Assembly (NCBI GenBank): GCA_963920765.1
Contig: OY987243.1
Span: 32,487,060 to 32,551,059, forward strand
Direction of reading: 5' to 3'
DNA from: Ulota crispa
Taxonomy: Eukaryota; Streptophyta; Bryopsida; Orthotrichales; Orthotrichaceae
Length of the DNA stretch: 64,000 nucleotides
This document shows, piece after piece, positions 14,917 to 41,450 of this stretch. The position numbers and the translations under genes were made by a program. The number at the start of each line of letters is the position of its first letter. The stretch's first letter is position 1. The notes below the pieces were generated by a model. That model made no database searches. It saw nothing but the letters and a program-made list of their open reading frames with translations, and had not been told where the DNA came from.

Positions 14917-15855
14917 TAGTGATTTTTTTTTTGGGCAATTTAAGGCCCAATTGCCTCAAAAAAAAAGGTGAGCTTCAAGCCTATAGAAAAAAAGGGGGGT
15001 TTTTTTCAAAAAATGCCTCATTGCAATAATGAAAATTGCATTGTAGTCCAGCCTTCCGTAAAATTCTCGTCAAATTAAAAATTGATGCCATCACTTTTAA
15101 AATTATTTGAGGTATTGTCTAATCCAAGTCCATGCAATAATAAAATAATGCCAATGATTATTTGGATACTTCCAAAAAATGTCAATGAATAATTTTTGCC
15201 TACAAAAAAAATCCCATGATGCTGCAAAAATCCATGATTAGGGGCCACCTTCAACTCCAACCAAAAATAGGATAGAGCCTCCAAACTACAAACTATTTTC
15301 AAAGAATGCCACATAAGCATTAGTTGGAAAACAAACAAAAAAAACCCTGCCTGCATCATTTGAATTCCTCGAAAAGATGTGCCATAACCGGGGGTCCCAC
15401 TGGCTTATTCTAGATGGAATCTGATATTACCCAAAGCCGTACCATCCCAAGTTAGAAAATGCTTGATTACTTTAGCCTAGAGCTAGTTGGGCGAATGTAC
15501 ACCTTCCGTCACTTGCGCGCACCTTCCCCAAAACCAGGGTACTTTTTTTTGTTTTTGTTGGTCGCGCAATGTGCGCCCAAAAATGCAAGCAATTGATGGA
15601 AGTCATGGAACTATCCATGTGTGCATGTTCATCCATACCATATACTAATTTTGGTATCTGCATCCATTTTATTTTTGTAAACCTGGTGTTTATTTGGGAG
15701 GGGTTTGGCAATTTCATCAAAAATTTCACTTGTTTTTTTATAGTTATGGTACCTACTGTCAAAATGAGGTAAGATTGCTGGAAAAATTTGTCCAAAAAAA
15801 TTTCCTTGCCCAATCCCATTACACTTTCAGAAACATGTCCTCTTAGAGACAATTG

Positions 15856-15900
15856 TTAACCCCTAAAGGACCAAGGAGCCCACTTTGGATTTTATGAGAA
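15856..15900 (+). other. Isolated left end of a TTAA-bounded element
   Basis: TTAACCCCTAAAGGACCAAG starts at 15856, identical in type to the ends of the family A elements. No matching right end was found downstream, so the extent is unknown. Confidence 0.45.
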
Positions 15901-17259
15901 CTCGGGTAGGCTCTATTGACTTCATAATTTGGAAAATTTTCATGAAATTTTTAGGATGGATGCTACTCATCATAGCCTAAATGTGAAGTTTTATTTCATG
16001 TCATTCCAATAAGTAATGCAAAAGTTAGAAGGTTTTTCCAATTTCAATATCAAACCAGGCAGCAAAAAATATATTCTATATATTTTTTATTTTATTTTAT
16101 AGAATTTTATAGACTGATACCTACTCAAAAAAAATTGAATCACTTGATTCCAAATAATGAGGTAAGAGTTAGAAGGAGTTTTATTTTGCAAGCAATGAAG
16201 GTAGGAAGAGGGTAGAAAAAACATATAAAGTTATCTTTTACCCTCAATTTTGAAAGTTTTCTAATGAAAACAAAAATTAAAGTTACTAATTGTCTGTTAG
16301 AGCATTCTCACCATTGGGATTAACAATTTTCAAACTCTTCCAAAACTCATTAACATATTAGTTATATCTTTCATTCATCAATACCTTTCACTTTACAATT
16401 TTTGTAAAATTGAATCCAAAACCTTTTTTGGTTAAATTTTTTTATATATGCTTTCAACCCATTTTCCAACATATTGCCAAAATTGCATTAGAAATACAAC
16501 ATACATGTTTTTCTCCAAAAATTTTGAAAACCAAAGCTTCACCTTCATGAAGGACTAGAAAAGCCTACATTTTGAAATTTAGGCACATTGATTTGCAATT
16601 GGTATGGATATTCATTCTGAAATTTTGGGACAATGCACTTGTGCAAGTTAACCAAAGAATCCTACAGTTGGATTTGTTAAAAATTAAGTTTCAATGAAGA
16701 TTTTGACCTTGCTTTTGGGAATAGTTTTTTGAAGCAGTTTTGGGTCTCTAAACACAAAAGAATTTTAGGGGATAATGAGAAGTGGTCCCCTCTTTTTTCT
16801 CTAGTGATTTAAAAATGTGACCCTGTCTCCCACTCATGTACTGTACTTCATGGAACTTCAAAATTGAACCACCAATGGCGGGTTTGGGGCTGTCGGTGAC
16901 TCTTAAATGGCCTTCATTGAAAACAAGTCACAAAATTGTTTGTTATTGAAAAGAAAGCCATCCCATTGTCTAGTGCAAGCTTGTTTCAAATTCTCAATAA
17001 CAACTGAGGGTTATTTTCCATGGTGGTCCCGAATTGAAAAAGCAAGTAACTTAAACCACAAACATGTTACAAAGCCATGCAGGGAAGTGTGCTACAAAGG
17101 GACCAATTTGAAAATTTGAAACTGTGTTTTCGCAAGTATTTAGCAAGAAGCACGGGAAATTCAGAGGTTTGACTTTCGTCCAAACTTGGATTTGGTTCAA
17201 AAATGAAAGAAAAAATATACTCGGAGAGCGAGAGAGTAAAAGAAGCGCAAAAAAGCGTA

Positions 17260-17880
17260 TAAAAAAAACAGAGGAATGCTCTGCTCTGCTCTGCTCTTTA
17301 TTGACAACTCCATTCTCAACAATCTCAAGCGCCCACCAACAAAATGGGCCACAATCCCCCGACATTACAAAATCTGCACAACAACACTTGCGACGATGAC
17401 GACAATCCCAGCTCCTCCGTCGCCAGAGCCATCGGCAGAGCTGTCGCCGGAGCTGTCGCCGGAGCTGTCGCCTTCAATCGAACCAGAACTCCCCCGGAAT
17501 GACAGGCCACAGCTTCCCTTCACAAAACGCGACAGAATGCGCATCATACGGCCGGTTTGCGCATGCGTCGTTCATGGCGATCCGCAGAACCTCCTCGTGC
17601 TCGAACCGAGCAATGCGCACCGCCTCCCCGTTCATTCGGAACCGATTCGCGGCCCCTGCGACGTTTACCAGCCATTGCCAGCGATTCTCCATGCTCCCTC
17701 TCGATCGAATTCAATCTGCAACTCTCGCCGCCTGTTCACAAATCCCAGTTCAGTCACCAATTTATCGATCAAACCAACATTCCTCTCTTCCTCTTCCACA
17801 CATTGCACGAATTTCGTAAACATCAGCAAATACAAAGACTCAGCAGAAAGCTACGAAATTTTGGCAAATGTAGATTAGGC
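17260..17880. pseudogene. GC-rich gene-like segment inside the long-TIR element
   Basis: Base composition changes abruptly from AT-rich to over 50% GC. A TATAAAAAAA sits at about 17259 on the plus strand. Open frames exist on both strands. On plus, about 200 codons run from 17276, with a stretch repeating SPELSPELSP. On minus, 72 codons (17474-17692) read MENRWQWLVNVAG near the start. I recognise neither, and neither has visible introns or conserved motifs. It may be a captured fragment of a host gene. Confidence 0.3.
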
Positions 17881-18557
17881 CTCGAATGTGAATTGACGAA
17901 GAATGTAAGAGAGTGACGTGTTCATGAAACTGACCGTGATTTTAAAGCTCGTTCAGAAATGGAAACCTAACGACGAGTTTCCAGAAATTTGCCCGGATTT
18001 GTCCTCCCGAGTTTGAAGTTGTGAGTGTGGTGCAATAAGAGACAAAAAGGAATGTGATTTTTTCTCCAGTTCTGGAAATGGCGATGTTCGAGCTGGTTTT
18101 GTAGCATTCCATAAAAATATGGTATCCACAAACCGCGCTGCATGAGAAAATCAAAGATGCTCGTGATGTTCGCCGTGTGTACTTGCCCGCGCTTGACCAG
18201 AGTGTGTTGAGTCGAAGGGGAGCGTGTCGCGATTGACCTTGGATGACGAGGAGACGTCGTTCATCGAGTTTGCGGTAAAGGCGCGCTTTTTGAACGAACG
18301 AAATGAACGATCGAACGAGCGAATGAACCTCGGTCGTTGACTCGACGAGATCCGGGGTCACTCCTCTTTTGAGCAACACCATCAACACCAGGGTTTTTTT
18401 TTGGTTTTCCGACCAATGCTTGTGTGGCATTCTTTGAAAATGGTTTGTAACTTCCAAACTCCATCCTATTTTTGGTTGGAGTTGAAGGTGGCCTGTGAAT
18501 GGATTTTTGCAGCATCATGGGATTTTGGGATTTTTTTTTGTAGGTAAATAATGTTCA

Positions 18558-19208
18558 TTAACTCCTAAATGCTCAAGGCATCCAATTTGGGTGTTTGTAA
18601 AACTCTGAAGACAAATAAAATCTTATCAAATCACTATTTTTGGTATTTCCTTTTGAACACAAGTTTGTTTTGAAGCCTATTTTCAACATCAAAAATCCAA
18701 TTTTGAAAATGAATGTTCATGATTTCTCTATTCAAGATTTTGTACAAGGGTGTCCACTGCAATCTTGAGTTTTCTAGTGTTGGAAGATCTTGAAAATGAG
18801 CCTCAAATACACTAGAGCTTGGAGAAAAATCCGCATTAGAAATCCATTTAAAAAAATACAAGAGTAGATTTTGAAAGCTATAAATTGACTAAAGTTAAAC
18901 ATGTAATGACCTTAACCTCATATTTTTTTGATGACCAACTTTTTAGATTTGACATGTGAAATGAGGATTAGAAAACTTCAAGTCATTTTTGCAATTTTAA
19001 CACCCTCATGTTCAAACGTTATAATCTTTCAAACTAAAAGTGATATTGTTGAATTTTCTTTTTCCATATAATTTCTAACATGTCAAGTTTAAATTTGTAC
19101 GGTTACAGTTTAAAAAAACTTGATGAGATTTATGTAAAGGTCAGTTGATTGTTCACTTTCTTGAAAATGCCAAGAAGTTTTGAATGGCCTTGGGCATTTA
19201 TAGGTTAA
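18558..19208 (+). mobile_element. TTAA-bounded element, family H, copy 1
   Basis: It is bounded by TTAA at 18558-18561 and 19205-19208, with inverted ends TTAACTCCTAAATGCTCAAG and, on the other side, the complement of TTAACCTATAAATGCCCAAG. It lies inside the right arm of the 4.5-kb element. The left arm of that element carries the unoccupied site (TTCATTGACATT as read on the matching strand), which aligns with TTCA-TTAA-CATC here only if one TTAA is removed as a target duplication. Other copies are at 26720-27356, 37070-37678 and 40799-41450. Confidence 0.8.
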
Positions 19209-19480
19209 CATCCTTAAAAAAGTATCCAAATAACCTTTGGTATTACTTAATTGTTGCATGGAATTGGATTAGACAATACGTCAAGTAATTTTAAAGTTTT
19301 CAATTTGACGAGAATTTTATGGAAGCCTAGACTGCAATGCAATTTTCATTATTGCAATTTGGCATTTTTTGAAAAAAAGTCTCCCTTTTTTGTATAGGCT
19401 CAAAGCTCACCTTTTTTTTTTGAGGCAATTGAGCCTTAAATTGCCCAAAAATAAAACACTGATCAACACCTTTTGAGTTT

Positions 19481-40798: not shown

Positions 40799-41450
40799 TT
40801 AACCCCTAAATGTCCAAGGACTTTCTGAACTTCTTGGCATTTTCAAGAAAGTGAAAAATTGACCAATTTTTTCATAAATCTCATTGAGTTTTTTAAAATT
40901 GTAATCGTACAAATTTAAACTTGACATGTTAGAGATTATATGGAAAAAGAAAACACAAGAATATCATTTATAGTTTGAAAGATTATAACATTTGAACATG
41001 AGGGTGTTAAAACTGCAAAAGTGACTTGAAGTTTTTTACTCCTCATTTCACATGTCAAATCTAAAAAGTTGGTCATCAAAAAAATATGAGGTTTAAGGTC
41101 ATTACATGTTTAACTTTAGCCAATTTACAACTTCCAAAATCTACTCTTGTATTTTTTTTAAATGGATTTCTAATGCGGATTTTTCTCCAAGCTCTAGTGT
41201 ATTTGAGGCTCATTTTCAAGATCTTCCAACACTAGAAAACTCAAGATTGCAGTGGACACCTTTTACAAAATCTTGAATAGAAAAATCATGAACATTCATT
41301 TTCAAAATTGGATTTTTGATGTTGAAAATAGACTTCAAAAAGAACTTGTATTCAAAAGGAAACACCAAAAATAGTGATTTGATAAGATTTAATTTGTCTT
41401 CAAAGTTTTGCAAACACCCAAATTGGGTGCCTTGGGCATTTTGAGGTTAA
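40799..41450 (-). mobile_element. TTAA-bounded element, family H, copy in reverse orientation
   Basis: TTAACCCCTAAATGTCCAAG at the left and CCTTGGGCATTTTGAGGTTAA-type bases at the right (TTAA 40799-40802 and 41447-41450). The whole interior is the reverse complement of 18558-19208. The next element begins within its right TTAA. Confidence 0.8.

Follow-up and report, generated by a model that had tools for sequence, protein, structure and literature searches.

The window analysed in this study is a stretch of 64,000 nucleotides from Ulota crispa, within which a DUF599 domain is encoded and a large inverted repeat (14917-19461) carries a miniature inverted-repeat transposable element (MITE) in one of its arms. 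The body of the MITE, which we read as a non-autonomous piggyBac element, comprises 643 bp on the plus strand (18562-19204), as delimited by a DNA search of the genome, alignment and pairing of the terminal inverted repeats (TIRs). It is flanked by TTAA at 18558-18561 and 19205-19208, both read from the window letters and placed by alignment, with the 4-bp length taken from variant copies described below. TIR comparison located the left TIR at 18562-18579 (plus strand) and the right TIR at 19187-19204 (minus strand), each with two mismatches to the 18-mer CCCCTAAATGCCCAAGGC; the termini of this copy read CTCC...TAGG and those of the family CCCC...GGGG. None of the 27 stop-to-stop frames of at least 130 aa falls inside the element. 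A second copy of the same MITE, found by DNA search and TIR pairing, occupies 40799-41450 on the minus strand, with its body at 40803-41446 and TTAA on both sides.

According to self-alignment, the right arm of the inverted repeat (approximately 18394-19461, minus strand) holds the MITE, and the left arm (approximately 14917-15345, plus strand) was recognized by self-alignment and genome search as one of many copies of a roughly 430-bp dispersed repeat. When the MITE and one TTAA are removed, the arms are identical at 364 of 442 aligned positions (82%), and the unoccupied counterpart site, TTCATTGACATT, is found in the other arm at 15178-15189 on the minus strand, as supported by the window letters, the alignment and paralogous loci. 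An earlier sequence-only reading of this DNA had placed the MITE inside one arm of this repeat and between two TTAA tetramers, had quoted the counterpart letters and had described the arms as matching again, apart from one A/G difference, without the MITE and one TTAA; all of these statements were borne out. The inverted repeat as a whole consists of two opposed copies of the dispersed repeat around 3 kb of DNA with a 212-aa open frame (17240-17878).

The genome search with the MITE-emptied arm returned 936 first-look candidates, of which the best 40 were scored. Among these best-scored matches, 40 of the 41 rows cross the MITE join unbroken, and the remaining row is the right flank of the window itself. 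The join was uninterrupted in all 12 repeat loci that were read, with the site being TTGA in 10 and TTAA in two (L081 and L084). The A/G mismatch between the window arms is explained by this, because most repeat copies read carry G, the usual base of the repeat; the MITE landed in a copy carrying TTAA where most of them carry TTGA. The repeat stands alone in 12 of the 12 loci read, and another inverted pair, 74 bp apart, lies at C9:5058809-5059616.

The MITE belongs to a large family. The DNA search in the 275-Mb genome gave 4861 first-look candidates, and among the best 40 that were scored, the 39 places besides the window copy are 91-93% identical to the MITE. The exact 22-bp end, TTAA followed by CCCCTAAATGCCCAAGGC, occurs 1545 times in the genome and a degenerate end pattern 1958 times, with the backwards-read pattern occurring 0 times in either case; VTAA with the exact TIR was counted 76 times, TTAB 60 times, and ends with the first TIR base changed 132 times. 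The sequence-only reading had proposed that the TTAA flanks be checked across genomic copies. We considered distinct two-ended elements, defined by TIRs with at most four mismatches, from loci found by the MITE DNA search and the degenerate end pattern. TTAA was present on both sides in 22 of 27 such elements and absent in five (L005, L014, L016, L026, whose pairing is doubtful, and one in L037). The degenerate-pattern loci were preselected for TTAA at one end, and the eight DNA-search loci were not; in elements from these eight unselected loci, TTAA stood on both sides in seven, and TTAA starts at 0.66% of the positions in the window background. TIR ends with an unusual inner base number 89 in the genome. 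Four unpaired TIR ends inspected for a long element turned out to be decayed or nested MITEs, with no transposase seen in them. In three loci (L017, L024 and L041), copies sit in or beside a TTAA that belongs to another copy, so that the junction reads GGGG-TTAA-CCCC.

The sequence-only reading took the filled and empty pair as direct evidence for a TTAA duplication. TTAA flanks alone leave the length of the duplication open, because duplications of TA, of 3 bp and of 4 bp give identical letters at a TTAA site; a single pair cannot discriminate among them, and classification from TTAA alone was dropped in favour of variant copies. We examined 30 of the 76 loci with a VTAA end and an exact TIR, and six of them showed the same odd 4-mer on both sides, with CTAA/CTAA in four (L043, L047, L061 and L071) and ATAA/ATAA in two (L044 and L049). 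In the remaining 24 loci, the opposite side was TTAA in eight and another 4-mer in 12, many with poor partner TIRs, and four had no partner within reach. Joining the full genome lists yielded five convergent VTAA/TTAB pairs, in which the bases match in four (L043, L061 and L071 again, plus a new one on contig C7) and do not match in one, as well as one VTAA/VTAA pair with unmatched 4-mers. The binomial probability of the matched 4-mers ranged from 3e-6 to 0.014, varying with the assumed rate and with the sample (26 VTAA loci with a partner, or the 17 whose partner TIR has no more than two mismatches).

The matched odd 4-mers occur in either orientation relative to the MITE (the VTAA side at one end in two and at the other end in three of the five matched loci that could be aligned to the window MITE), and therefore the duplication is 4 bp. 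The target duplication of this family is 4 bp long, with TTAA preferred and CTAA or ATAA occasional, so that the 4-bp TTAA duplication itself, as earlier claimed, holds. A TTAA-preferring element of Tc1/mariner (Stowaway) type, duplicating TA and counting the flanking A and T as its own, could not be told apart by its letters either at TTAA sites or at the empty site; however, in the copies flanked by CTAA/CTAA or ATAA/ATAA, the duplication includes a base that must otherwise be the element's own T, and with the variant-site copies departing from a TA duplication in this way, we regard such an origin as extremely improbable. Likewise, a 3-bp TTA/TAA duplication by a PIF/Harbinger (Tourist) MITE with one asymmetric end base would, with the additional A, place TTAA on both sides. 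This reading deserves hardly any credence, as the odd base is duplicated in either MITE orientation, which the variant-site copies would not display under a 3-bp duplication, and the family TIR begins with CCCC at both ends. TTAA MITEs can thus be safely classed through variant target duplications and not through TTAA alone. Several VTAA ends lie near contig ends (for example C1:41366995, C3:34062704, C7:23142 and C10:20772), and the flank ACTTTC is common to five VTAA loci (L053, L054, L055, L059 and L069), which suggests, from the shared letters, a duplicated block.

The signature M-x-G-V-D-x-x-D-Q, which we take to be typical of piggyBac transposases, has 118 matches in the genome, compared with 0 for the backwards-read pattern and a chance estimate of about 1; a stricter signature, YN..MGGVD, has 0 genome matches. 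Two signature loci were inspected (L085 and L086). L085 contains a 326-residue frame that is identical to that of its sister copy, L089, and each matches PF13843 (DDE_Tnp_1_7) with E=4.3e-54. Against PDB structures, the 326 residues of L085 match piggyBat (9c0f, E=8.6e-19) and piggyBac (6x67, E=2.4e-17), the alignment spanning about 290 residues of the catalytic region. The aspartates of the query (VDE, MDN, GVD and ADQ) align with LDE, MDN, GVD and ADQ of 9c0f and with IDE, CDN, GVD and LDQ of 6x67, and are presumably the catalytic residues of piggyBac. L086 is a decayed transposase copy, in which one of three pieces matches PF13843 (E=1.1e-10) and no TIR with at most five mismatches was found in its 6 kb. 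Cysteine-rich stretches follow downstream in another frame in L085 and L089, and also in L086, where the piece concerned gave no Pfam match; at most, these stretches are candidates for the cysteine-rich C-terminal domain of piggyBac. When the five signature sites within the initial 10.6 Mb of contig C1 were compared by eye with the listed degenerate-pattern TIRs, none lay within 10 kb of one.

The sequence-only reading had also proposed a search for a full-length partner with the same termini, and such an element is present in the same genome. The sister copy of L085 (C2:36777762-36782969) is 5208 bp long, carries the PF13843 transposase (E=4.3e-54), has TIRs matching the family TIR at 18/18 and 16/18 positions, and is flanked by TTAA on both sides, its ends reading TTAA-CTCCTAAATGCCCAAGGG and GCCTTGGGCATTTAGGGG-TTAA. 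It lies 13.8 kb from L085 in opposite orientation. L085 itself ends on the right in a TIR with 17/18 identity to the family TIR followed by TTAA, and the outer part of its left TIR is lost. Close to the ends, the identity between the two copies is 99.3% (744 bp) and 100% (757 bp); there are 0 substitutions in 3934 aligned columns, with 33 gap positions, and the flanks beyond the right TTAA differ; nearly identical elements in differing flanks are therefore separate, recent insertions. The transposase pieces of both 5.2-kb copies are spread over three frames, a split that may reflect either decay or introns. Should the frames have decayed, the 5.2-kb copies would for that reason have been moved in trans. 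Thus a transposase-bearing partner with the same ends was found, and no intact source was seen. Upstream of the transposase, the minus strand of L089 (C2:36778400-36782300) has an open frame of 432 aa with a high content of Q, E and R.

The ends of this partner lead to the MITEs by way of a second size class of about 900 bp. The right 585 bp of L085 is 85% identical to the right end of the approximately 900-bp MITE family (as seen in L024), and the left ends of L085 and this family are homologous as well. Members of this family were noticed in L014, L015, L024, L034, L036 and L044, and its middle (an GTGAATAGTGTTGT-like run in L024) occupies the position that in the piggyBac element is taken by a middle of 4.4 kb. 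These MITE ends flanking a transposase, together with a single TTAA tetramer close to each of the two L085 break points (1049 and 5453), could be taken to mean that an unrelated piggyBac became nested inside an approximately 900-bp MITE of another superfamily, and that the 5.2-kb element is unrelated to the MITEs. Nevertheless, about 120-130 bp of the MITE middle is missing from L085, the sequences inside the two break-point TTAA are not inverted repeats, and the sister copy is built alike between ends of its own that are flanked by TTAA. Nesting is accordingly disfavoured by the sequence comparison and seems most unlikely.

The relationship of the 5.2-kb element to the 643-bp subfamily was read on each side separately. 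On the left, alignments of L024 with the window MITE and with four copies of the same size span 102-156 columns (63-75%), and those of the left end of L088 with these five copies span 37-43 bp (84-92%). On the right side, the alignment of the second window copy with L085 covers 169 columns (61%, E=0.001) and that with L021 covers 202 columns (61%, E=2e-8), and the window MITE itself aligns beyond the TIR over only 113 columns (E=0.05). No immediate parent was seen for the 643-bp subfamily. In a by-eye comparison of 100 listed right ends of the approximately 900-bp type, out of 220, only that of L085 itself lies near a listed signature site.

TTAA is the target of Sola3 elements too. Sola3 is recorded as a MITE superfamily in iMITEdb, the portion of which consulted gives no TSD, yet the transposase of the partner is of the DDE_Tnp_1_7 type and matches piggyBac proteins of known structure, and a Sola3 element is accordingly given only a negligible chance. 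The termini bear on the choice as well: piggyBac termini begin with CC/YY, as do those of the MITE family, unlike the RR of Kolobok. The resemblance of the CCC/CTC termini to piggyBac ends, pointed out earlier from the letters, is supported, with the family ends CCCC...GGGG lying on an element with a piggyBac transposase. The sequence-only reading had left the choice between piggyBac and Kolobok, of which the former stood and the latter did not. A Kolobok MITE, with the TTAA duplication made by a Kolobok transposase, would by itself be compatible with the duplication, and Kolobok is known from chlorophytes and rhodophytes, according to the available text of PMC9587614; the same text gives its termini as 5'-RR and YY-3', against CCCC...GGGG here, and the partner with the same ends carries PF13843. 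The Kolobok reading is thus contradicted by the termini and is very improbable.

With high confidence, we therefore classify the window element as a piggyBac-superfamily MITE, presumably moved in trans by the piggyBac transposase of longer relatives. As a MITE it is 643 bp long, non-coding, bounded by TIRs, high in copy number and shares its ends with a longer element. The 4-bp duplication, the preference for TTAA, the sharing of ends with an element that bears a transposase, and the family of that transposase were observed directly, and mobilization in trans, as well as excision and joining chemistry like that of insect piggyBac, is what we infer by analogy. Longer relatives within this genome would provide a DDD transposase of piggyBac type in trans, and this enzyme would recognize the 18-bp TIR and subterminal sequence. 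It would then excise the MITE and join it to 4 bp of target DNA, as a rule TTAA and now and then CTAA or ATAA, the joining presumably duplicating these 4 bp; in the window, the MITE would in this manner have been inserted into a dispersed-repeat copy with TTAA. It is conceivable, though we put it forward only tentatively and consider it less probable than its alternative, that a land plant here harbours a piggyBac-MITE system of its own which was active recently and may be so still, in which an intact transposase elsewhere in the genome recently moved the 5.2-kb copies and amplified more than 1000 MITEs in trans. If such recent trans-mobilized activity is true, this would be the first plant system for piggyBac transposition on native ends.

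PiggyBac has been studied mainly in animals, and in plants it has been used as an imported tool. The closest comparison is with Pokey and mPok of Daphnia, members of the piggyBac superfamily with MITEs, which likewise duplicate TTAA, with ATAA and CTAA as minority sites, and likewise have MITEs that share ends with transposase-bearing copies. The target sites of Pokey, as given in the available part of PMC3849761, are TTAA in 88.13%, TTAT in 5.93%, ATAA in 5.09% and CTAA in 0.85%, and the same part describes copies inserted in TTAA beside another copy, as in L017 and L024 here. Unlike Pokey and mPok, the present family has a plant host, an 18-bp TIR (CCCCTAAATGCCCAAGGC) and more than 1500 exact ends. 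With piggyBac of Trichoplusia ni (6x67) and piggyBat of Myotis (9c0f), it shares the catalytic region, the aspartates and the TTAA target, but the element here is 5.2 kb long and has an additional long frame upstream; according to the accessible text of PMC2874221, piggyBac itself measures 2.4 kb and its TIRs 13 bp.

The earlier statement that there are few or no descriptions of piggyBac and Kolobok from land plants was overstated. In the portions of the sources at hand, piggyBac is named among plant or angiosperm superfamilies (PMC10004981 and PMC10794571), is stated to be present in plants (PMC2874221), has 1230 copies in a fern genome table (PMC6890710) and, as worded in one abstract, has been isolated from plants too (PMC10813416). 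As far as these excerpts go, the angiosperm MITE lists and the fern table share the superfamily name with our family, and they offer a label or review statement, whereas here the ends, the duplication, the transposase and the derivatives are tied together. Among the PMC open-literature matches listed, as represented by titles and abstract openings, there was no native plant piggyBac family with both transposase and ends. PiggyBac in plants has thus already been named, and the chain of evidence is unusually complete here. The more than 100 transposase signatures, the 5.2-kb structure and the more than 1500 exact MITE-type ends provide, for testing, ends and a transposase family that are native to a plant.

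Other features of the genome were noticed as well. The locus L042 encodes a sucrose/proton symporter (TIGR01301, E=1e-169), a family of plant range, and it is this symporter and the DUF599 domain of the window that mark the DNA as plant. Of two contig ends inspected, one read only N and the other had no telomere repeats. Further TTAA-bounded ends beginning with CCCCTAAAGGACCA were noticed in the window at 15856, 34247, 36553 (where CTCC is read), 42786 and 62150, and also in L002, L017 and L023; judged by their letters, these ends perhaps belong to a second large family of like kind.
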